A stretch of 64,000 bases of DNA from Fervidicoccaceae archaeon (GTDB taxonomy: Archaea; Thermoproteota; Thermoprotei_A; Sulfolobales; Fervidicoccaceae): positions 1-64,000 of the forward strand of contig JAVYOA010000009.1 of assembly GCA_038734945.1 (NCBI GenBank), read 5' to 3'. Made by a program: the position numbers and the translations under genes. Positions 16,740-51,824 of this stretch are shown one piece after another (the first letter of the stretch is position 1; every line of letters begins with the position of its first letter). The notes under the pieces were generated by a model. The model searched no databases and was not told where the DNA came from. It saw only the letters and a program-made list of their open reading frames with translations.

Positions 16740-18263
16740 CTACTCCTCAGCATCCTTTATTCCGTTCTCGGTTATAGCAAATACTGCTTCTCCCTCTGGA
16801 AGGTGAGGGGCATCGACAACCCTCGCAATTCTCTTGTTCCCTCTGCTCTTTCTAAGCTGAACTCTCACCCCTGGTGCATGGTATAAGACATGACCTCCGA
16901 CTGCCTGGGTAGGATCTCCATAGAATACATCCGGCCTGGCCATCACTTGATTTGTTATAACAACAGCTATGTTATAGACTTCGGCCATTCTCATGAGCTG
17001 ATGAAGATGCCTGTTCAGCTTCTGCTGTCTGGAGGCTAGGTTCTCCCTTCCAGGATATTCAGCTCTGAAGTGACCTGTAACTGAATCCACAACCACGAGC
17101 TTCACGCCTCTCTCTGGGATTATTTCAGAAACCTCCTCTACAACTGCCATTTGATGATCGCTGTTAACAGCCCTTACATAAAGTATATTCTCCATAACTT
17201 CATCTGGATTAAGACCCAAATTCCTTGCCATGGCCTCTATTCTCTCCCACCTAAAAGTGCCCTCGCTGTCTATGTAAACAGCTTTTCCGTTCAGTCCACC
17301 CCTTTCTTGCGGAAGCTGAACGTTGACTGATAGCTGGTGACTTATCTGAGTATTGTGCAGGATTAAACCAGTTGAAGATATGAAATAGTGAAGCCTGGGC
17401 ACAACAACATCATATACATAGCCATTGTACTTTTCTATTTTGGAGTTCTTAACTTCAAGAGTTTCTGTGCTAGCTTTTCTTGAATCCATTCTCCTAATTG
17501 CTATTGTTCTATCACCTGGTCTGATTTCTGAGCTCCTCCTCCATTCCAGCCCATTTCTTCCCAGCAGAAGGAATGGATGATTCAGGGTCGTTCCGAGCTC
17601 GGTGCCATCGGATAGCTTTATCCTGACTATCTTGCCAACCCTCTGTCTGTAGATAAAGGGAACCGGCATTTTCACCAGTTCTCTGAAGAAAATGCTTGGT
17701 ACTTCAGCTCTGTTTAGTTCCACGGAGGTTCCTCCGTCTATTTTTTTCTCCTTTCCCTCACTCAGAGCCATATCGTATATCTCTGAAACAGAAATCGCTG
17801 GAATGAATTTTTTATTTATGTAGATTGCTATCTCTGTATCTGGAGTGAAGCACTTCCCTGTGCCAAACTCTCCAAAGAACTCGGTAACCGTCCTTGTCTC
17901 AACTCCTCCTCCCAGAAGATCGTCGAGAGCTCTGCTTCCGGTCGTGATTTTTCCTACCGTCTGCCTCTCCTTCTTCAGCTCTAGAGCAGTTTTGAACTTT
18001 ATGTCTAGAGCCTCCCTAGCTGCTTTTATGGCCTTCTGTGCCGTCACCAGAGGAATGCCGACTGCAGCACTTATCTCCTGGGGAGTTGCAACAGCAATTG
18101 CTTCAAGGGAAGCATAGCCAGCCTCAACGAGTTTCGCTGCTGTTGCAGGGCCAACTCCTGGAAGATCAGTTAGGCTCTTTATTTTTCTCTCTTCAGCTGT
18201 GGTGCCATTTTCTAAATCCTCCCCTCTTTCCTCCTTCTGAGCTTTAGGAGTCAATTTTCCCAA
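16740..18263 (-). CDS. radA: DNA repair and recombination protein RadA, interrupted by a mini-intein
   Basis: Archaeal RecA/Rad51-family recombinase that forms filaments on single-stranded DNA. The N-extein (residues 1-137) has a helix-hairpin-helix region ([17 protein letters not shown]) and ends in the Walker A half GEFGTGK; residues 138-304 are an in-frame intein; the C-extein (305-507) restores Walker A as GTGK-TQ and carries [12 protein letters not shown] (Walker B) and the L1/L2 loops before [10 protein letters not shown]. The spliced protein would have 340 residues, normal for RadA. Start is TTG 18263 with an upstream A/G-rich stretch. Without splicing the ATP site is broken, so activity depends on splicing. 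Confidence 0.96.
17352..17852 (-). other. RadA mini-intein (167 residues, no homing endonuclease)
   Basis: Begins with the nucleophile Cys of [10 protein letters not shown] (block A) right after the Walker A Lys and ends with LILHN (block G His-Asn), followed by Thr as the +1 residue. Block B is seen as [10 protein letters not shown] and block F as [15 protein letters not shown]. There is no room for a LAGLIDADG endonuclease, so it is a minimal splicing element. Known archaeal RadA inteins, for example in Pyrococcus horikoshii (172 residues), sit at the same Walker A position. Confidence 0.94.
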
Positions 18264-28569: not shown

Positions 28570-29124
28570 CTAGAAGGACTTGAAAGCATCCTTCTCAGCG
28601 CCGCATACTGGGCACTTCTCTGGAGGCTCATCTCCCACATGAGTATATCCACACACTGGACATATCCAGACTTTACCCTTCAGTTCCATATCTTTTCCAG
28701 AATCTACACTTTCCTTTGCCTCTCTGTAGAGCTTTGCGTGTATCTGCTCAGCCTGATATGCGTAATTGAAGCTCCGAACAGCTTCATTCTCTTTTTGGAA
28801 CTTAGCAATTTCAATATAAACAGGATACATCTCTCTGACCTCGAACTCCTCCCCTCTTATGGCTAGCTCCAAATTCTTGCTTGTATTTCCAGGTCCAATT
28901 GGAACACCTCCACATCCTTTGGCGTCCTCGTTGTACTCTCTGAGAGCTCTATAGTGATTTGAAGCATGAACTTGTTCAGCATATGCGATAGCTCTAAACA
29001 GTCTCGCAACATTCTTGTAGCCCTCCTTTTCAGCCACATCAGCGAAAATCAGATATCTCATGTGTGCCATTGATTCTCCGCTGAACGCTGACAGAAGAGC
29101 TTCCTTTGTCATATCCTTGACCAA
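28570..29124 (-). CDS. Rubrerythrin
   Basis: Peroxide-scavenging di-iron protein. Residues 1-140 form the ferritin-like bundle with the diiron ligand pattern [41 protein letters not shown]. The C-terminal rubredoxin-like domain has [21 protein letters not shown]. The 184-residue length fits. TTG 29124 is preceded by GGTGAT, a good match to archaeal ribosome binding; ATG 29112 is an alternative. Suits an anaerobe that must remove peroxide. Confidence 0.93.
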
Positions 29125-36467: not shown

Positions 36468-37091
36468 CTAAAAGAGCTCTTTCAGCGCATTTTCGAGGTC
36501 TTCAGGTGTATCTATATCTCTCAACGTTCCAGGATCTCCCGTTTCCACACATAAGATCCTATCTCTGTATTTTTCCACAACGCTCTTCAGCCCTCTTCCA
36601 GCTTCGCTTATTCCTTTTATCTCGTTCTGAAGCTCAGGCTTGAATATAATAGGATGAGCATGTCTTCCATTAAAACATGCTACAGTAATTGGCATGCTGC
36701 TTAGTAGGTGAGACTGTATCGTCTTTTTGATTGATGCAGGACGTATGAAAGGAACGTCACCTGGGTGTATTAAAACGCTCTCTCCTTGATTGACAATTCT
36801 CATGCCGACCTTTATTGAGCTGCTCATACCTCCGCTAGCATAGCTTGAGTTAAATGCAAAGTATACACGAGAGAGATCATCTTGATGAACTCCATTTACT
36901 ATAGCACTGAAGACCCTTTCATGGTCTCTTCCGAGGACCACGATTATTTTCTCCAATCCAGAAGCTATGAATTTTTCAACCGTATGCAGTATGATGGGTC
37001 TTCTATTTACTTCATATAGCAACTTGTTTCCTGGAAACCTCGTTGAGAGACCTCCTGCTAGTATAATTGCTGCAATGCTACTTTCTCCCAC
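36468..37091 (-). CDS. MocA/MobA-like nucleotidyltransferase (molybdenum cofactor cytidylyltransferase type)
   Basis: NTP-transferase with the loop ILAGGLSTRFPGNKLL near residues 10-25, VVLGRDHERV, IHPGDVPFIRP (metal Asp) and RDIDTPEDLENAL. 207 residues, as in MocA enzymes that attach CMP to molybdopterin for xanthine-dehydrogenase-type hydroxylases. Overlaps the XdhC-like gene by 14 bases. No molybdoenzyme is encoded in the window, so the target is elsewhere, or the protein acts on another substrate. Last gene of the operon. Confidence 0.8.
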   Translation of the reverse strand: MGESSIAAIILAGGLSTRFPGNKLLYEVNRRPIILHTVEKFIASGLEKIIVVLGRDHERVFSAIVNGVHQDDLSRVYFAFNSSYASGGMSSSIKVGMRIVNQGESVLIHPGDVPFIRPASIKKTIQSHLLSSMPITVACFNGRHAHPIIFKPELQNEIKGISEAGRGLKSVVEKYRDRILCVETGDPGTLRDIDTPEDLENALKELF

Positions 37092-37974
37092 TTTTCTCCT
37101 CTCCCCCCTTCATGATCTGCTCAATCAATGAGGGAACAGCATTCTCCTGAACCCCTTGAGCACCCCTATCGATCTTCATAATTTCGGCCATAACAGCTAT
37201 CGCTATTTCCTCAGGCGTCTCGCTTCCAACGGCTAGACCAATTGGCGAGACGAGCTTTTCCTTGATTATTCCCGGATCTATTCCACTGCTGATAAGAGAC
37301 TTCAATATATAACCGAGCTTCCCCCTTCCAGCGAGGAGTCCCAGATATCTGGGTATTATGCCTTCCTTGAAGATTTTCTTGAGCACTTCTGCTTCTAGGT
37401 TCCCATCACCGTGAACAATAACTACAAAATCATTCTTGTTTATCTTTATCCTGTCGAGCTCGGTTAAAATATTCGAGGACGCATAGATTTCATCCGCATC
37501 TGGTATTTTTTCCTTATTGGCATATTGTGGAAAGTTGTCAACGACAATTACCCTGTAGTTGAGCATTTTTCCCAGCTTAGCCAGAGGCCTAGCCACATGG
37601 CCTGCACCTATAATAACCAGCCTCTGCACGGGCTTCAAAACATCAATGAACACATTAACAACACCACCGCATAGCTGTTCAGTTGCTATGACCTCCTCAT
37701 AAAGACTTTCTCTGAAAAGAGCCACCCTTCTCTCTCCGGGCTTTCTGGTCTCTAGCACCCTCTTGGCTTCCTCTATTACCTTTCTCTCGAAGTCCCCTCC
37801 TCCTATGGTTCCAATGACGTTCCCATCCTCGTCAATGAACATCTTTGTCCCCGGTCCCCGAGGTGCCGACCCTGCTTTCTTTGTTATCTCTATCATGGCA
37901 ACAAGCTTTCCTTGCTCGAGCCTCTCTAGCACCCATCTAAAGAATACAGGGTCACTTGGATACTCACCCATCAA
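37078..37974 (-). CDS. XdhC/CoxF-family protein (molybdoenzyme accessory factor)
   Basis: XdhC-type chaperone that sulfurates or inserts the molybdenum cofactor in xanthine-dehydrogenase-like enzymes. N-terminal XdhC domain (GSAPRGPGTKMFI, GTIGGGDFERKV, a CGG in EQLCGGVVNVF) and a Rossmann domain (VIIGAGHVARPLAKLG near residue 133). 298 residues. Its 5' end overlaps the DUF2877 gene by 11 bases and its 3' end the MocA-like gene, so these genes are one transcript. Confidence 0.85.
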   Translation of the reverse strand: MMGEYPSDPVFFRWVLERLEQGKLVAMIEITKKAGSAPRGPGTKMFIDEDGNVIGTIGGGDFERKVIEEAKRVLETRKPGERRVALFRESLYEEVIATEQLCGGVVNVFIDVLKPVQRLVIIGAGHVARPLAKLGKMLNYRVIVVDNFPQYANKEKIPDADEIYASSNILTELDRIKINKNDFVVIVHGDGNLEAEVLKKIFKEGIIPRYLGLLAGRGKLGYILKSLISSGIDPGIIKEKLVSPIGLAVGSETPEEIAIAVMAEIMKIDRGAQGVQENAVPSLIEQIMKGGEEKSGRK

Positions 37975-38824
37975 CCGGCATCACCTTGCACACATGCTCC
38001 AAGAACAAGACTCTTCGATATTTATATATGCTGTAGGCAGTTATAAGTCCTAGCCATATATATAAACCACTATCGTGCCCCCTTCTTAGTAACTGCAGAA
38101 AAAGATCATATGCATCCTGCTCATCTCCCCGCAGCAGGGATACGGCACTATCTAGGACTAGCTCATCCAATAAACCCATTGAGGCATATTTGATATATTG
38201 AGAACTGGCCCACGAGGTTCTTCTCAAAAGCTCTTTATCTATCTTTGGGAAATAACTCTCATCAAATGAAGCGCACTTTCTTGCAATGCTGAAAAGAGAG
38301 AGCATTCCAGCGAGAAAGTCGTCGCCAGAAGGAGTGAATCCACCTCCGGCTCCAATTATCTCTTTCAGAGCACTCCCCGAAGTTAAAAAGTCCCTGTTCT
38401 TGCATATCCTTCTCATTGTCTCGGAGCCGAAGAAATTGTTCCACGCAGTTGAGAGAACTACAAATGCTCCTTTGAGAAATTTGAAATCCTCCTCCTCAAT
38501 TCCTCTGCACTCCTCAATCTCTGGTTCTTTCTGTCTATACAGCTCAGCTTCCGTTAGAAGTATCTTAGTGCTATTGCCTCTTATGGCCTCAGAGGTAACC
38601 TCGAGAATTTCGCCAGGCAGGAAAAACGTATCGAGAGGAGATAAGGGGACATTTATGGTAAACGGAGATCTCCATCTGTGGGCAGAGATTAAAACAAGGC
38701 CATCGTCTTTTATGTTTCTCAAGTAAACAGTTGTTCTAAAAACATGTTCAATTTTGAAAAGGGAGGTTTGGAAAAAAAATATATGGGAACCATAGCTCGT
38801 TGCTTTGATCTCTCTCCAGTACAT
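37964..38824 (-). CDS. DUF2877 family protein (YlbF/AllH-like)
   Basis: 286 residues with the family motif GAGGGFTPSGDDFLAGML near residues 165-182, also seen in E. coli YlbF (AllH). E. coli FdrA, YlbE and YlbF (AllFGH) are reported to constitute an oxamate carbamoyltransferase in allantoin degradation; this knowledge is from the family, not from this sequence. The gene lies directly behind DUF1116 with an 8-base gap. It overlaps the XdhC-like gene. Subunit role is inferred. Confidence 0.8.
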   Translation of the reverse strand: MYWREIKATSYGSHIFFFQTSLFKIEHVFRTTVYLRNIKDDGLVLISAHRWRSPFTINVPLSPLDTFFLPGEILEVTSEAIRGNSTKILLTEAELYRQKEPEIEECRGIEEEDFKFLKGAFVVLSTAWNNFFGSETMRRICKNRDFLTSGSALKEIIGAGGGFTPSGDDFLAGMLSLFSIARKCASFDESYFPKIDKELLRRTSWASSQYIKYASMGLLDELVLDSAVSLLRGDEQDAYDLFLQLLRRGHDSGLYIWLGLITAYSIYKYRRVLFLEHVCKVMPVDG

Positions 38825-38832
38825 TACCCTTT

Positions 38833-40098
38833 TTACGCTCCGTACTTCTCAACATATGCCTTGAATGCGTCCTTGAATAGCTCAAACGGAAACTTGACTA
38901 TCCCTGCTCCAACTTGCCCTATACCAGCCTTCTTGTGAGCTATCCCTGTATTGATTGTTGGAGTTATTCCTGTCTTCAGCACGTATCTGATATCTATTCC
39001 AGTTGGCGTTCCCTGGAACCCCAAGTAGGGTATTGTGAAGTATTTGTGCTTGCTATAAGTTATATTATACATGTTCTTCGTGTTCTCAACAGCGAACTCC
39101 ACCGAGCCGCCAACCCAGCTTACCACTGCAGGAGCTGCTGCCATCGCAAATCCACCAAATCCAGCCGTCTCGGTTATCGCGCTATCTCCTAGATCTGGAT
39201 TGGCATCATCCTGTGTAAATCCAGGGAAGAACACTCCCTTCGGAACAGGAGCTGGTGCTGTGAACCATCTATTTCCCAGTCCGCTAACCCATATTCCTGC
39301 ATCTGTACCATTTCTGGTTAGGACAGTGACTATAGTGCTATATTCTATGTTGTGAGCAGCCAACGTCATTGCTTTCGCTGAAGCCATTCCTATATTCAAT
39401 GTGAAGAAATTGTTATTCTTCATGAACTCCCATACTCTTGAGAACACATCCTTGGGCACATCTGCCCTCACGAGATATGTTGCTATTTCGTTCATGAACT
39501 TGCTAGTTGCAGCAACATATCTATTGTGGCACTCGTCTCCCATATGGAGAGCCTGCTGGATTATCGACTTGAAGTTTATGCCACCCTTATCCTTTCTGGC
39601 CTCATCCAGTGCTGCCTTCAGTGCAGGATAAAGTTCATTCCTCATCCAATTCAGCCTAGATATGACCTCGCTGTCATAAGCTCCATACCTGAGTACTTTT
39701 CCTATACCCTCATTATAATTGCTAAATGCTCTGTTGCCGAATTTTTTATCTTCAATAATATAGACTGGCATGTTGAAGGAAATAACACCAGCCATCGGAC
39801 CAACAGCATTGAACTCATGATTTGGTCTAAGTATTACTTCTCCTCTCTCTACAAGCTTTATTGCTTCCTCCTCACTTGATGCCTTCCCCTCATATATCAA
39901 AGCACCAATTATTGCCCCCTTCATCGGACCAGAAGCTCTTTCCCAGGTTATTGGGGGACCTGCATGGATTAGCATATCCTCTTTCAGACCAGGGATAGCA
40001 TCCTTTGCTAATTTTGTATCCACTAAATATGGCTCTGCTTCCATCATTCTTTCTACTGCCTTTTTGTTTGCCTCCTCAATTTTTTCCTTAAGAGACAT
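38833..40098 (-). CDS. DUF1116 family protein (YlbE/AllG-like)
   Basis: About 421 residues with DUF1116 features: the N-terminal HAGPPITWERASGPMKGAI, ALHMGDECHNR with conserved Cys-His, WVSGLGNRWFTAPAPVPKG, ITETAGFGGFAMAAAP and the late GIDIRYVLKTGITPTINTGIAHK. The frame opens at TTG 40116, but GGGGCGTGAG just before ATG 40098 makes that start likelier. Same family as E. coli YlbE/AllG. Third protein in a likely carbamoyltransferase complex with FdrA and DUF2877. Confidence 0.85.
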   Translation of the reverse strand: MSLKEKIEEANKKAVERMMEAEPYLVDTKLAKDAIPGLKEDMLIHAGPPITWERASGPMKGAIIGALIYEGKASSEEEAIKLVERGEVILRPNHEFNAVGPMAGVISFNMPVYIIEDKKFGNRAFSNYNEGIGKVLRYGAYDSEVISRLNWMRNELYPALKAALDEARKDKGGINFKSIIQQALHMGDECHNRYVAATSKFMNEIATYLVRADVPKDVFSRVWEFMKNNNFFTLNIGMASAKAMTLAAHNIEYSTIVTVLTRNGTDAGIWVSGLGNRWFTAPAPVPKGVFFPGFTQDDANPDLGDSAITETAGFGGFAMAAAPAVVSWVGGSVEFAVENTKNMYNITYSKHKYFTIPYLGFQGTPTGIDIRYVLKTGITPTINTGIAHKKAGIGQVGAGIVKFPFELFKDAFKAYVEKYGA

Positions 40099-40135
40099 TT
40101 TTCTCACGCCCCTCAAATTATGAACTTTTAAAAAA

Positions 40136-40306
40136 CTAGAGTAGATCTGAGAGCTTCTCCGCCAGCTCTTTTTCGAGCTTTGGCGGAGGCTGGTAGTTCA
40201 CCTGGACAGCCTTCACGCCCTGCCTCTTGAGATCCTCATAGAATATTCTTAGCCCTACATTTATTACTTTCAAATCTTCATCGAATAGTTTTCTTGCTTG
40301 AGACAT
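40136..40306 (-). CDS. Small protein between fdrA and DUF1116 genes (56 residues)
   Basis: A complete short ORF, ATG 40306 to TAG 40136-40138, beginning MSQARKLFDEDLKVINVGLR. It starts 5 bases after the fdrA stop with the fdrA GGAAGGTGAT stretch as a plausible ribosome binding site, and ends 37 bases before the DUF1116 start. Its core (VINVGL ... FYEDLKRQGVKAVQVNYQPPP) resembles, from memory, a short segment found at the ends of bacterial FdrA or DUF1116 proteins; here it is a separate gene. Likely a small subunit; function unknown. Confidence 0.7.
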   Translation of the reverse strand: MSQARKLFDEDLKVINVGLRIFYEDLKRQGVKAVQVNYQPPPKLEKELAEKLSDLL

Positions 40307-40311
40307 GCATA

Positions 40312-41955
40312 TCACCTTCCCTGCTTCATATATGCCTTGAGATATTCTTCATAGAGAACATCGAGCTTCTTGCTATCCAAATTTCCTCTCAGGGCAGCAG
40401 TTGCTGCCGCCAAGGCCGATATCGCGTTTGTTGGATAGACAAGCACACCCTCCGACTCCAGCTTTCTCACCTGCTCCTCAAATCCCTGGGGGTCTTCCTT
40501 AACTCCCAACACATAGCCTATGATAATGAGATGCCTACCATCTCTCTCAGCTATTCTCTTTGCTTCCCTTATAGCATCCAGATGAGCTCCTGCAGGATCT
40601 GGGTGACTTCCATATCCGAGCACGAAGTCCATTAGTATAACAGCAACTTCGGGATCCTTAGCTTCATCTATAAGTCTTATCCTTCTGATGGTTGGATCTA
40701 TCATTGGATGCGCTCTGCCAGCAGTAAATTCTTCCTCTCCTAGATCCACTACCGTATTGCCAACGCTCTTGAAAGGATCTTCGAGCTTTCTCTGTCCCTT
40801 TAGTGGGGCATTGCTGTATATCTCTATTCCAAGGAGATCGAATATCATTAGAGCCTCGCTGGTAAGCGTGCCTCCTGTATATAGTGCCCTAATGTACTTC
40901 TGCGAGCTTTTCAGCTTTTCATAATGCGGCTTAAGAGAATCTCTCAATTTCCCAAAAGGTATTGTGTATTTTTCCCATATCTGTTCATATGTTGATTGTG
41001 AAACCAATCTAACAGCTTCAAGTGCCGTTGCGTGCAGAGTTCTAGCGACACTTACCCTTTCTCCCATTCCTTCAGGTATCCTCATATCAACCTTTCCCAT
41101 GAAGCCAAGAACGATGGGCTTTTTTGTGTTCTCGGCTGCAAAATTAAGTATAGAGTCCAGCGTTTCCTGCTGCGGCGGCTTTGATACTATTGTGATTATC
41201 TTTGTGGAAGGATCCCTCTCCAGATAGAGGAGAGAAAGCTTAGTCATTAGCCCCCCCACATAGTTCTTAACATCTCCTCCCCCAACTCCTAGCCCATGAG
41301 AGATTCCAAGACCCATGTTATGAATTAGTGAACTCACTTCCTGAAGACCTGTTCCTGCTGCTGCTATTATTCCAATTGGTCCTCTCCTCACGGCGTTTGC
41401 GAATGCTATGGCTTTTCCATTGATTATTGATGTTCCTGCTCCAGGTCCAAGAACGAGAAGACCTCTCTCATAAGCGTATTTTTTCAGCTCAACTTCATGC
41501 TCCTCAGGAACATGGTCGCTGAACAAATGGACATGGATTCCTCTTTCGAGAAGCTTCATAGTAACGTCCCTAGCATATTCCCCTGGAACCGAGACTATAG
41601 CCAAGTTAGCGTCAGGCAATGCGCTAATTGCTGATTCCAGGTCGAGGTACTCCATTTCTCCACCAGATACCGGGGCGCTCAGAAGCTCCCTTGCTTTTGC
41701 TAATGCATTATCCAGCGAAGCATTGTCCTTCGCAGCAATAGCAATAAAGAGATCAGAATCACCGGCCTTTTCAACTTCAGGAAGGAGAAGTCCGAGCTGC
41801 TTGGCTATTTCCTTGTTGGTTTCAGTTCCCATTGCCACGATAGCTTCGAGAACCCCGCTGAGCTTTTTCAGCTCCTCGCTTATTTTCATGAGCTGAAGAC
41901 TATCTCTCATAAGGTTCTTTTCAACTATAACCCCACTTACTCTATCCTGCGACAC
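40312..41955 (-). CDS. fdrA: FdrA family protein (AllF-like, acyl-CoA-synthetase-related)
   Basis: 547 residues, built like succinyl-CoA synthetase alpha/beta but without ATP-grasp. Features: DLESAISALPDANLAIVSVPGEYARD, LVLGPGAGTSIINGKAIAFAN, the GIIAAAGTGLQEVSSLIHNMGLGISHGLGVGG loop that holds the family's phosphate-binding region, and ALYTGGTLTSEALMIF. In E. coli FdrA (AllF) is reported as a subunit of oxamate carbamoyltransferase. Second gene of the minus-strand operon, 50 bases behind the cyclase gene. No carbamate kinase lies within the window. Confidence 0.85.
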   Translation of the reverse strand: MSQDRVSGVIVEKNLMRDSLQLMKISEELKKLSGVLEAIVAMGTETNKEIAKQLGLLLPEVEKAGDSDLFIAIAAKDNASLDNALAKARELLSAPVSGGEMEYLDLESAISALPDANLAIVSVPGEYARDVTMKLLERGIHVHLFSDHVPEEHEVELKKYAYERGLLVLGPGAGTSIINGKAIAFANAVRRGPIGIIAAAGTGLQEVSSLIHNMGLGISHGLGVGGGDVKNYVGGLMTKLSLLYLERDPSTKIITIVSKPPQQETLDSILNFAAENTKKPIVLGFMGKVDMRIPEGMGERVSVARTLHATALEAVRLVSQSTYEQIWEKYTIPFGKLRDSLKPHYEKLKSSQKYIRALYTGGTLTSEALMIFDLLGIEIYSNAPLKGQRKLEDPFKSVGNTVVDLGEEEFTAGRAHPMIDPTIRRIRLIDEAKDPEVAVILMDFVLGYGSHPDPAGAHLDAIREAKRIAERDGRHLIIIGYVLGVKEDPQGFEEQVRKLESEGVLVYPTNAISALAAATAALRGNLDSKKLDVLYEEYLKAYMKQGR

Positions 41956-42004
41956 TATTTCTCACCTATGAATAGCGAAAAAGAGGAAAAAATTTTTAAA
42001 AAAA

Positions 42005-42889
42005 TTACTCAGGACCATTACATATCGCGAATATTCTTGCGAAGGCCGATTCTGCTCCTTCCACCTTAATTGGTGCTCCAGATATGAGGCAGCGCTTGTT
42101 TAGAACTTTTGATATCTCCCCTCCGAGGTTCTCAGCATGCAGCACTCCTCTTGGGAAAGTGTATGTGTGAAGCACCTGGTAGTTCTTTGGCCACGGCATC
42201 ACTTCGTCAACAGACTTTCCAAACTTCTCCTTGAAGAGATCTGCAATATCTGGTCTAACTCTCCTAATAACTGTATCGAGCGGGTGGTCCTGGCTTATGG
42301 CATCTACACCAGTCCACTTGAGCTGCTTCTTAACACACCACTCAGCAAACTCAGCAGTAGGTCCGGGATGCATTAGCTGATACCTCACAGTATCAGCGGT
42401 TGGCTGATCCCATTGATACTTGTGATATCCCGTGTGAATAATCAAAATATCTCCTGGCTTCAATTCGAGGTTGTGCTCCTTCAGCTTCCTCTCAATCATT
42501 TCCGATGTGTATATACTCAGATCCTCCACTTCATCACTTATATCAACGATCACTCCTTCTCCAACAAAATGGTCAAGAGGAATCATGTCTATTGATGGGG
42601 CTCCAGGGTCAAAATGAATTGGACCATCCATGTGTGTTCCGATGTGCCACGCAGTTTCAATAGCCTGCGCTTGGACTTTGTTCTCAGGAAGAGTCTTTAT
42701 CCAGTACATCTTGAATGGTGGATATGTTGGAAAGGGCGGCGCATATATACCGAGGGGCTGACTCAAGTCGTAAATTCTTGCCTCGTCCCAATTAATGAGC
42801 TTGCTCCACTTGTATTTTGGTTTTGGTATGTATGCCTTTATGTATGGTTTTTCCAACCTAGAAGAATAGTTTATGCTCAATTCCATCAC
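42005..42889 (-). CDS. Cyclase-family metal hydrolase (kynurenine formamidase/isatin hydrolase type)
   Basis: 294 residues of the Pfam Cyclase family: the metal-binding signature ETAWHIGTHMDGPIHF (HxxTHxDxPxHF) near residues 84-99, VVDIS-type strand, PGDILIIHTGYHKYQ and GVDAISQDHPLDT. Relatives hydrolyse amide bonds of cyclic or N-acyl compounds. As first gene ahead of fdrA it may open the ring or release the substrate of the carbamoyl-transfer pathway. Two ATGs at the start. Confidence 0.85.
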   Translation of the reverse strand: MMELSINYSSRLEKPYIKAYIPKPKYKWSKLINWDEARIYDLSQPLGIYAPPFPTYPPFKMYWIKTLPENKVQAQAIETAWHIGTHMDGPIHFDPGAPSIDMIPLDHFVGEGVIVDISDEVEDLSIYTSEMIERKLKEHNLELKPGDILIIHTGYHKYQWDQPTADTVRYQLMHPGPTAEFAEWCVKKQLKWTGVDAISQDHPLDTVIRRVRPDIADLFKEKFGKSVDEVMPWPKNYQVLHTYTFPRGVLHAENLGGEISKVLNKRCLISGAPIKVEGAESAFARIFAICNGPE

Positions 42890-45650: not shown

Positions 45651-45660
45651 TTTATATATA
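45651..45660 (+). promoter_or_regulatory. Putative TATA box for the encapsulin gene
   Basis: TTTATATATA directly after the thiN stop and 24-33 bases before ATG 45684, consistent with an independent, nearly leaderless transcript for the nanocompartment gene. Confidence 0.5.
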
Positions 45661-45683: not shown

Positions 45684-46766
45684 ATGTACATGCTCTCAAA
45701 ACATCCTCTGGAGCTTCCTCCCAAGAGACAGCTCTCAAGGGAGGAAATAATGGAGGCCCTGAGGCTCAACATAATTGCTGAGCTTGATGCAGTGAACCTG
45801 TACGAACAATTAGCAAACTACACTTCAGACGATAATGTTAGAAAGGTTCTGCTCGATATAGCAAAGGAGGAGAAAACTCACGCTGGTGAGTTCCTTGCTC
45901 TGCTGAAGAGCCTAGATCCAGAGCAAGTAGCAGAGCTTGCAGCTGGGGCTGAAGAGGTGAAGAAACTCACAGGAATATCAGCAGAGGATCCCCCCATTTC
46001 CCAAGCAGAATTGGGCTCTAGGAACGGAACTTTTTTGGAAGGAATCAGCAAAAAGGTTCTAGATGCAGCTGAGGGAGCCAGATTCCTCAGAAACATCCTT
46101 CCTGTCCTCAAGCTAGGAAGAGGGACGGAATTCGTTCAAGTTGTATCATCAAACGGTGAACTAAAATTCTCCCAACTGCATGAAATAAGCCTCTCATTCT
46201 CAATAAAGCAGAGAGAACTTGATTTTTGGAAGAAAACAGGACAAATACCCGAGCTGGTCCAGGCACAAAATGCTGGAATAAAGCTGGCTATGCTCGAGGA
46301 CGACTTCATACTTAGAGGTTCAGAGAAGGAAAAATATCCAGGACTGCTCACTTGTGAATCTGTGCAGAGATTACAAATAAGTGACTGGAGTCAGCCCAAC
46401 AACAGCGTGGCCGATGCTGCGCTTGCTATTGGAGCCCTATTTTCCAAGGGCGCTCCCAGACCATATGCGCTGCTTCTAAGCCCAAGAGATTATGCAAATC
46501 TGCTCAGACATACAGAGAGAACTGGAGTTTCCGATCTCCAGAGAATTAAGGAGATATTTGACAGAGTAGTGATGATTCCAAGCCTTGAAGAGGGAAAGGC
46601 CGTAGCCCTCTCTCTGAACAGCGTAGTTGCTGATATTGTTCTGGGCGGAGATACTGAGGTAGATGAGGTTGGGCCGAGGGAAGATGAAGTAGAATATAGA
46701 GTTTGGGAAACAATACTGCTCAGAATAAAGTATCCAGCGGGAATAGTTGTTCTGGAAAAGAAGTAA
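45684..46766 (+). CDS. Encapsulin shell protein with fused N-terminal ferritin-like cargo domain
   Basis: Residues 17-80 are a ferritin-like helical pair with iron-ligand pattern (EIMEALRLNIIAELDAVNLYE, then EEKTHAGEFLALL). Residues 110-360 are an HK97-fold encapsulin (family 1): RNGTFLEGISKKVLDAAEGARFLRNILPV, the E-loop region and P-domain, and the late DRVVMIPSLEEGKAVALS and WETILLRIKYPAGIVVL that fit the family C-terminus. The one-piece design is known from Pyrococcus furiosus particles. It would self-assemble into a protein shell that stores iron and oxidises it, protecting against peroxide together with rubrerythrin. No other cargo gene lies beside it. Confidence 0.88.
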   Translation: MYMLSKHPLELPPKRQLSREEIMEALRLNIIAELDAVNLYEQLANYTSDDNVRKVLLDIAKEEKTHAGEFLALLKSLDPEQVAELAAGAEEVKKLTGISAEDPPISQAELGSRNGTFLEGISKKVLDAAEGARFLRNILPVLKLGRGTEFVQVVSSNGELKFSQLHEISLSFSIKQRELDFWKKTGQIPELVQAQNAGIKLAMLEDDFILRGSEKEKYPGLLTCESVQRLQISDWSQPNNSVADAALAIGALFSKGAPRPYALLLSPRDYANLLRHTERTGVSDLQRIKEIFDRVVMIPSLEEGKAVALSLNSVVADIVLGGDTEVDEVGPREDEVEYRVWETILLRIKYPAGIVVLEKK

Positions 46767-46775
46767 TTTTTTTAC
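46764..46775 (+). terminator. T-rich terminator-like stretch after the encapsulin gene
   Basis: TAATTTTTTTAC at the encapsulin stop, a T-run of the kind that ends archaeal transcripts; it also abuts the end of the convergent MFS gene. Confidence 0.4.
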
Positions 46776-48097
46776 ACTTTTTCAGTTTCTTCCAAGGATC
46801 TGCCAGCAGTTTCCTTGCCTTTGCTCATCCAATATACCGAAGCAATAACCCCAAGAAACCAGATGAACGAGTTCAAAACTAGCATGGTCTTCGCTTCCAA
46901 TAGAATCATTGAACCTACAAAAGCAGAATTGAGAAGCCACGCTACTCCTGTTATGAACCCCGCTGCGGATGCTCTCATGCCCGTGGGAAAGAGCTCTCCT
47001 TCCAGCACGGCTATCGAGCCATATGCCCACTCAGCGAATATCATGTTTATGAATAGCGATATAGCAAAGGGAACAAAAGAAGTGCTTTCCAACAGAGCAA
47101 TTAACGAAATAGACGAGAAGAAGCCAAAAGCAAAGGAGAAGAGCAATGCATGCTTTCTGCTTCTGTCTATCAGCCATATGAATGGCAAGGCTCCGAGCGA
47201 AGCTCCAAGATTAGATATAGCAACCACAAGCGGCGCTGATTGTTCTCCGAAAGTGAAGCCTGGAGCATATGGAACGTAATAGGCTGCCAGGTTATAAGTC
47301 AGAAGCTGCGATGTAACCACAATGATAAGAACAGTAAATCTTCCAACATAGCGACTCAGGGCCTGTGAGAGGGAAATTGCCTTGCTCTCGCTAGCAATGG
47401 AAACAATGTCTCTTCTTCCAGTAAATCTCTCAACTATCATTTCTGCCTGTTCCCTCCTACCTCTCAGAAGGAGCCATCTGGGAGATTCAGGAATATGGAG
47501 TCTGGCAATAAACACTAAAATGGAAAGAGAGATGGCAGTCAGAAGTGTGTATATCATGACTGTTTGCAGGTCAGTTGTGAGCTTTGTATAGAATAGAGAG
47601 AGAGACGCAATGATTGCAGCCCCAACATTCCAGAAATTGAGAGAGAGCATGAGCATCTTTCCTCTATGCCTAGCTGGCATGAGCTCGGAGAGAGCTGCAT
47701 AAGATGGTCCGACTTCTGCCCCAACTCCATAGTTTATCAGGCTAGTTAGCAGTATTGCCTCAATGAAGCTGAGCACTCCAGAGTATGTCAGAATTGCAAA
47801 TAGGGAAGCAGAAATAGTGTATATCGATAGAGAAAGAATGAGTCCAATTCTCCTTCCAACCCTGTCTGAGAGAACTCCAAAGGTGAGAGAGCCAAGCATA
47901 AAGGAAAGGGAGTTCACCATTAAAATTGTTGAGGCTCTTGATGAAAGCTCAGGAAGCAAGTACAGTGTAGTTGGAACCAGAGAGAAGAGGACGCCGTCGA
48001 GAAAAAGGCTCATTGAAATTATAGTGAAGAGCTTCCAGTGCTCCCATCCAAGTGGAGCCTTGTCCAAGGGATTATCAGCTGTCAATATCAACACCAA
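46772..48097 (-). CDS. Major facilitator superfamily transporter (sugar/organic-acid type)
   Basis: 441 residues with twelve hydrophobic segments. Motif A is GVLSDRVGRRIGLILS near residues 74-89, with PESPRWLLLRGRREQAE after helix 6 as in the sugar-porter/SV2-like branch, and ELFPTGMRASAAG after helix 10. Substrate unknown; relatives move sugars, aromatic acids and metabolites. Divergent from the phosphoesterase gene, sharing its 157-base promoter region. Ends 5 bases from the encapsulin stop. Confidence 0.88.
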   Translation of the reverse strand: MVLILTADNPLDKAPLGWEHWKLFTIISMSLFLDGVLFSLVPTTLYLLPELSSRASTILMVNSLSFMLGSLTFGVLSDRVGRRIGLILSLSIYTISASLFAILTYSGVLSFIEAILLTSLINYGVGAEVGPSYAALSELMPARHRGKMLMLSLNFWNVGAAIIASLSLFYTKLTTDLQTVMIYTLLTAISLSILVFIARLHIPESPRWLLLRGRREQAEMIVERFTGRRDIVSIASESKAISLSQALSRYVGRFTVLIIVVTSQLLTYNLAAYYVPYAPGFTFGEQSAPLVVAISNLGASLGALPFIWLIDRSRKHALLFSFAFGFFSSISLIALLESTSFVPFAISLFINMIFAEWAYGSIAVLEGELFPTGMRASAAGFITGVAWLLNSAFVGSMILLEAKTMLVLNSFIWFLGVIASVYWMSKGKETAGRSLEETEKV

Positions 48098-50471: not shown

Positions 50472-51824
50472 ATGTTAAATAAAAAAATAATACCTTTCAT
50501 AACTGTTGCACTGCTGTTGGCATCCATTGCATCTCCAGCAATTGTGGCAAGAGCATCGGAGCCAGGAATCGTTGTCCTCGTGGATCTTGCTCATGGTGAA
50601 TCAGCCGCTGGTCTAGATATAGCTATAAAGGTTCTTCCCGAAGCTGAATTCTACGTTCTGGTCTCAAGCCAAGATCAAGCGAACTCTCTTTCCCCAATAG
50701 TGAAAGAGCTAGCCTACAAGATACTTATCGGAACATTTGATACAATTACAAACGATCTCAAGAACGTCAACGTCATTATAATTCCTCAGCCAACAATGGC
50801 TTTCTCACCAGCAGAGATACAGGCCATAGTTAACTGGTTCAACACTACAGCAACAATGCAGAAAGCCATATGGCTTGCGGGAGATAGCGACTATCCGGCA
50901 CAGGGAGGTAGCCAGGAAATAGCAATGCATCAGATCGACAAGATCGCCGAAGCTATAGGCTCCCACCTAAGGGAGGACTTTGTCTCAGTTGATGACTATG
51001 CAAGCAATGCTGGAGCAACATACAGAGTTGTTGGTCTTGTTCAGCCAGATCCAGGAGCAGAAGTTGTTGGATTTGCTGCGCAGAAGGTTCTATTCCATGG
51101 CCCAGGAATCGTTGCTTATGTAGACGATCAAGGCAATTGGCACAACTTGAACACGTCGACGCTTCCAAACATATACAGAATTGTGTGGACAACTAGTCAG
51201 GGAAAGATTTCGGAGAATCAGCCACAGCAACCTGGTGCTCCTGGTGACCTAGGAAAGACAGCAAGCGCAGGAGATACTGGAAAATACGTTCTCTTGGCTG
51301 CTGAGAAAATGATACTTAATATAGGGGGGACCAACGGAACTAGGTTCGTTGTTGTGAGCGGAGAGACTCCAATCGGAGGCTATCAGCCAGGAATATCCAC
51401 TTCCTACGTTGGTGTGAACCTCGATGGTCCCAGATTCTTCAGAAACCTAATACTCTGGATATCTGGCTATATGGGCGAGCTCAATTTTGTGCAGCAATAT
51501 ATAGCTGACAAGCAGACTTTGAGTACACAGCTCTCAAATTCGCAAAGTGCCCTGCAGGCTGCGCAGCAGACAATTTCGCAGCTTCAGCAGCAGTTGCAGC
51601 AGTCACAGAGTGCTCTGTCTTCGGCCAACAACCAGATCTCTCAGCTAACTAACCAGCTTAATCAGCTCAAAGCTTCTCTGAGCCAGGTCAACTCCACAGC
51701 CAATTCAGCGCTTCAAACAGCTAGCGGAGCTGCAAGCTCAGGTCTAGCATATGGTGGATTAGCCCTTGGACTGATTGCCCTCATAGTAGCAATTGTTGCT
51801 ATAGCAATGAAGCCGAAGAAGTGA
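50472..51824 (+). CDS. Membrane-anchored surface protein with coiled coil, unknown function
   Basis: 450 residues: signal peptide (residues 5-28, ending ARA), a globular alpha/beta domain (30-345) with VVLVDLAHGE, IIIPQPTMAFSPAEIQAIVNW and IWLAGDSDYP reminiscent of a DUF4350/GATase-like fold, a Gln/Ser-rich coiled coil (355-415) and a C-terminal helix with a KPKK tail. GGGGTGA at 50458-50464 is a good ribosome binding site for ATG 50472. It sits between the phosphoesterase and the ABC importer, so it is probably part of the same surface system. Family not recognised with confidence. Confidence 0.8.
   Translation: MLNKKIIPFITVALLLASIASPAIVARASEPGIVVLVDLAHGESAAGLDIAIKVLPEAEFYVLVSSQDQANSLSPIVKELAYKILIGTFDTITNDLKNVNVIIIPQPTMAFSPAEIQAIVNWFNTTATMQKAIWLAGDSDYPAQGGSQEIAMHQIDKIAEAIGSHLREDFVSVDDYASNAGATYRVVGLVQPDPGAEVVGFAAQKVLFHGPGIVAYVDDQGNWHNLNTSTLPNIYRIVWTTSQGKISENQPQQPGAPGDLGKTASAGDTGKYVLLAAEKMILNIGGTNGTRFVVVSGETPIGGYQPGISTSYVGVNLDGPRFFRNLILWISGYMGELNFVQQYIADKQTLSTQLSNSQSALQAAQQTISQLQQQLQQSQSALSSANNQISQLTNQLNQLKASLSQVNSTANSALQTASGAASSGLAYGGLALGLIALIVAIVAIAMKPKK

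Follow-up and report, generated by a model that had tools for sequence, protein, structure and literature searches.

An intact ferritin-like/encapsulin fusion gene in a Fervidicoccaceae archaeon, probably encoding an iron-storage nanocage

According to Giessen 2021 (PMC8346489), every Flp-fusion encapsulin is archaeal and most are crenarchaeal; the paper also cites structural studies of the S. solfataricus particle. In the Pyrococcus furiosus particle, 180 fused ferritin-like domains correspond to 18 decamers, a number that is mismatched with the shell symmetry (PMC11202242); because 18 decamers do not fit this symmetry, the packing of the domains is unsettled. In Myxococcus xanthus, the cargo is a separate protein that is loaded into the shell by a C-terminal targeting peptide (PMC11202242). 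In the di-iron centre of R. rubrum EncFtn, Glu32, Glu62 and His65 serve as ligands, and Tyr39 is also located there (PMC5012862).

We analyzed a window of 64,000 nucleotides from a heat-loving Fervidicoccaceae archaeon (contig JAVYOA010000009.1), in which one gene adds one orthologue to this already known fusion family. A sequence-only reading of the same DNA had described a P. furiosus-type ferritin-like/encapsulin fusion in a single gene and had considered it notable in a crenarchaeote. The fusion was confirmed by a full-length match to the P. furiosus particle 2e0z and by models of both domains scoring above their cut-offs, and the single-gene arrangement by one uninterrupted frame. The supposed crenarchaeal rarity was ruled out by the published distribution (PMC8346489) together with our class-wide search, which found fused homologues throughout the class. 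The features of the locus are the following:

45684..46766, plus strand: Flp-fusion gene for a Family 1 encapsulin, an uninterrupted frame from ATG to TAA that encodes 360 aa
45690..45974, plus strand: ferritin-like (EncFtn) domain, about aa 3-97, matching PF22277, PF02915 and 5n5e
45975..46022, plus strand: variable linker, about aa 98-113, with low pLDDT and a median identity of 22% for aa 98-118
46023..46763, plus strand: HK97-fold encapsulin shell domain, about aa 112/114-360, matching PF04454 and NF041155, Z 21-30 to solved encapsulins
45651..45658, plus strand: TATA-box-like TTTATATA, an 8-mer that begins 33 bases before ATG 45684
46764..46784, plus strand: stop codon and T-rich stretch, read from sequence only

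The shell half is recognized by both the Linocin_M18 model PF04454 (E=1.7e-30, 106.6 bits against a cut-off of 24.3, aa 160-344) and the NCBIfam encap_f1 equivalog NF041155 (E=2.6e-33, 115.5 bits against a cut-off of 100, aa 159-357), which places it in Family 1 of the encapsulins. Within aa 24-82, the N-terminal part matches Rubrerythrin PF02915 above the curated cut-off (E=3.3e-7) and EncFtn-like PF22277 barely above it (E=1.5e-6, 28.3 versus 27). Scores for NCBIfam EncB_fam (83.4) and TIGR04535 (66.4) fall below the respective cut-offs of 90 and 125, as expected for a fused divergent member. Among solved structures searched with phmmer, the closest is the fused P. furiosus particle 2e0z (aa 3-358, E=1.3e-56), and aa 5-100 align to the P. 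furiosus EncFtn structure 5n5e (E=9e-33). The gene at 45684-46766 is thus an intact Flp-fusion, with an EncFtn-type domain N-terminal to a Family 1 shell in a single 360-aa ORF. Identity to full-length homologues is 62-64% for close relatives and falls to about 40-53% in the wider class; since such homologues occur across the class, the gene is not a chance ORF. Further along the protein, the peptide RFLRNILP (aa 133-140) aligns with RSLLKHLP, the P. furiosus fusion peptide (PMC11202242), and its first Arg is invariant.

The invariant columns in an alignment of 30 fused homologues include E33, D35, Y40, E62, E63 and H66. By motif, E33, E63, H66 and Y40 correspond to R. rubrum Glu32, Glu62, His65 and Tyr39, so that the Glu, Glu and His di-iron ligands and the EExxH motif of EncFtn are all present. 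The segment DIAKEEKTH also fits the archaeal fusion-FLP motif DXXXEEXA(T)H (PMC11202242). Retention of the iron-binding Glu and His, on which the sequence-only reading had staked its proposal, was therefore upheld, and loss of the active site could be ruled out.

An AlphaFold2 monomer model built with the 30-sequence alignment has a mean pLDDT of 86 and a pTM of 0.65. It predicts helices at 19-45, 50-77 and 79-96 in the ferritin-like part, then a low-confidence linker around aa 97-114, then the shell domain; with this pTM and a disordered linker, the relative placement of the two halves is left open. The model was compared with known structures by Foldseek and VIA-align. The predicted shell scores Z 21-30 against nearly all solved encapsulins (29.8 for M. 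xanthus EncA, 23.1 for T. maritima) and at most 19.6 against phage capsids, and its HK97 fold is thus closest to solved encapsulins. Superposition on the P. furiosus particle, the comparison that had been proposed for this protein, gives Z 26.8 over 228 residues at 2.1 A for the predicted shell and 2e0z. Because the shell fills the hit list of the full model, this comparison is uninformative on the ferritin-like half, whose assignment comes from sequence comparison.

The HK97 fold also raises the question of a leftover or active provirus whose capsid captured a ferritin-like domain. Encapsulins and such capsids share ancestry (PMC8346489), and the protein has weak matches to the phage major head protein family phrog_264 (2.5e-10) and to Major_capside PF09950. 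We nevertheless reject a provirus as highly improbable. Encapsulin models score far above phage ones, structural Z-scores are 21-30 for nearly all encapsulins versus 20 or less for phage capsids, and orthologues persist class-wide with intact ferroxidase residues. As the sequence-only reading had stated, there are no phage neighbors: the adjoining genes are cellular and encode PCNA, a ThiN-domain protein, an MFS transporter and a metallophosphoesterase, rather than the portal, terminase, protease or other structural proteins that would be expected around an HK97-type provirus capsid. Among the window proteins sampled for comparison with phage families, the only match besides the encapsulin was the coiled-coil end of 50472-51824, to tape-measure proteins.

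The fusion gene is present in a single copy in the genome. Its start may be ATG 45684 or, because the first residue of most homologues matches Met3, ATG 45690. The TATA box claimed for the gene was recovered as the TATA-like TTTATATA, located after the stop of the ThiN-domain gene. Three copies of this 8-mer occur in the window on both strands, against 2.1 expected by chance, and a promoter alignment of the upstream regions of relatives gave no conserved pattern. By its position, TTTATATA would be a putative promoter element, and its spacing suits a leaderless or nearly leaderless transcript. The T-rich stretch at the stop codon is a possible terminator.

The sequence-only reading had also linked the encapsulin to a rubrerythrin in the window:

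28570-29124, minus strand: rubrerythrin, 16.6 kb from the encapsulin gene

This rubrerythrin is genuine, although at such a distance and on the opposite strand it provides weak context, and a common operon is ruled out. A third rubrerythrin-family match in the genome (L215, G000:C9:188736-189092, plus strand) lies within a 302-aa frame. Elsewhere in the window, an intein splicing domain (PF14890, 4.4e-13) interrupts a RadA/Rad51 recombinase ORF of 507 aa (16740-18263, minus strand) close to its P-loop; this is apparently a mini-intein, since the insert is too short for a homing endonuclease. A minus-strand cluster at 36468-42889 includes AllG, an oxamate carbamoyltransferase subunit, and a CoA-ligase-like FdrA-type protein; it adjoins cyclase-like and XdhC-like genes, read by eye, and is possibly involved in ureide or purine breakdown.

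In the 99.95%-complete genome, no ferritin/Dps gene of the PF00210 family was detected by a search that was positive in 14 of 14 control genomes. Judging from this absence, the encapsulin gene may be the only ferritin-type store of the cell. The best overall explanation, to which we assign a probability of about 85%, is an iron-storage encapsulin nanocage with a built-in ferroxidase. We infer assembly, T number, lumenal placement, ferroxidase activity and iron storage as follows. The C-terminal HK97-fold domain would form an icosahedral shell, for which the P. furiosus particle makes T=3 probable, and each subunit would carry its ferritin-like domain into the lumen on a flexible linker. Paired ferritin-like domains could then form di-iron ferroxidase centers from E33, E63 and H66. 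Fe(II) entering through shell pores would be oxidized at these centers, and the Fe(III) mineral would be kept inside the shell. The particle would probably be the main ferritin-type iron store and so would lower iron-driven oxidative stress.

Across the class of this archaeon, the fused protein is matched whole or in part in 126 of 229 genomes (54 of 87 genera), and the PF04454 shell in 84 genomes (37 genera). In roughly 40 genomes, the ferritin-like domain is encoded by a separate gene of about 100 aa while a shell is not detectable, a count that takes in incomplete assemblies as well as the nearly complete single-contig genomes G078, G097 and G098. Such shell-less loci include L033-L052, L133-L153 and others, and stand-alone relatives also occur outside the class, in other archaea and bacteria; short FLPs lacking targeting peptides have already been called s-FLPs (PMC11202242). 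Nearly all stand-alone genes retain the ligand motif. Rows that fail the pattern mostly have EEMTH or a similar variant, and clear loss of the motif is limited to the divergent row L154. Given the many relatives that retain the ferritin-like domain with no shell detected, shell-enclosed storage is only one of its viable states.

A tree of the domain, built from 160 rows but only 97 columns, has many unresolved forks. It requires 17 changes between the fused and stand-alone states, versus about 54 with shuffled labels; its well-supported branches force only 3-4 changes, and the direction of change between the two states cannot be read from it. In genome G080, an intact ferritin-like gene is followed by fragmentary, stop-ridden shell sequence (L040:1543-2503), which suggests that the shell of a former fusion decayed and that a shell was lost at least there. 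When tblastn was used to find shell remnants beside stand-alone ferritin-like genes, only L040 was recovered, besides the broken or split fusions L180, L196 and L159. Most of the tblastn matches were an artefact of the query L007, which had retained part of the ferritin-like domain. L180 and L196 contain stops and the halves of L159 are split by about 1.1 kb; all three are apparent pseudogenes or assembly errors.

A rubrerythrin-like gene encoding about 160 aa comes directly after 14 distinct intact fused genes and after two shells truncated at contig ends; it lies within about 50 bases downstream, often with an overlap. The C-terminus of this partner is nearly invariant (SPWHGxPGG tail), typically WKDSPWHGTPGG. 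Genes that share an operon with ferritin-like proteins are known more generally (PMC8346489), and no description of the SPWHGxPGG tail was found in literature titles and abstracts. Loci of the partner gene include:

L004:2586-3059: rubrerythrin-like partner gene
L033:6270-6818: rubrerythrin-like partner gene
L041:6374-6853: rubrerythrin-like partner gene
L042:5198-5677: rubrerythrin-like partner gene
about 15 further loci: rubrerythrin-like partner genes

In L033, L041 and L042 the partner adjoins stand-alone ferritin-like genes, and a divergent copy occurs near L143. Given this placement beside stand-alone genes, targeting to a shell that is present does not by itself account for the tail. 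A search run without a positive control gave no match to the partner gene in the genome of the window, making the window gene a single-gene version.

These distributions bear on another function, namely that the protein acts mainly in protection, by ferroxidase activity or by scavenging peroxide, with a shell that organizes and shields the domains and with bulk iron storage as a secondary role. In its favor, fused homologues are much better conserved in the ferritin-like domain than in the shell (median identity to the window protein 71% versus 38%); many genomes retain this domain with no shell detected, and relatives pair it with a rubrerythrin-like gene. However, R. rubrum EncFtn alone oxidizes but cannot mineralize iron, and storage requires the encapsulin (PMC5012862). 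In the genome studied here, both another ferritin and the rubrerythrin-like partner went undetected. We therefore consider a mainly protective role unlikely and retain iron storage as the preferred reading.

At the level of the class, we tentatively suggest a broader scheme, which we regard as possible but rather doubtful. The ferritin-like domain would be the main selected unit, repeatedly losing or gaining a shell and paired with the SPWHGxPGG rubrerythrin-like partner in an uncharacterised iron/peroxide pair able to act both inside a compartment and free of one. In this scheme, the window gene would represent a compartmented form that has dispensed with its partner. The partner gene and the shell-less relatives are leads rather than claims about the window gene; comparison with the latter would test what encapsulation adds to the ferroxidase. 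The window protein itself is a candidate for settling how fused ferritin-like domains are packed in a shell, being probably heat-stable, encoded by a single gene and apparently accompanied by no other ferritin.

Compared with known systems, the protein most resembles the fused encapsulin of P. furiosus (2e0z; 5n5e, PFC_05175), with the same domain order (345 versus 360 aa here), the same ferroxidase motif and a full-length sequence match. However, P. furiosus belongs to another phylum, the linker of the window protein is longer and unconserved, and the P. furiosus ferritin-like domain sits elsewhere in the domain tree, with Archaeoglobales. The crenarchaeal Flp-fusions, including the S. solfataricus particle, share both the fusion design and the broad archaeal group, although the Sulfolobales members are distant from the window protein (29-34% identity) and many relatives outside Sulfolobales have the downstream rubrerythrin-like gene that is apparently missing here. 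M. xanthus EncA is among the best structural matches for the predicted shell (Z 29.8), and the ferritin-like cargo proteins EncB and EncC are homologous to the N-terminal domain of the window protein. In contrast to M. xanthus, the cargo in the window protein is fused to the shell subunit.
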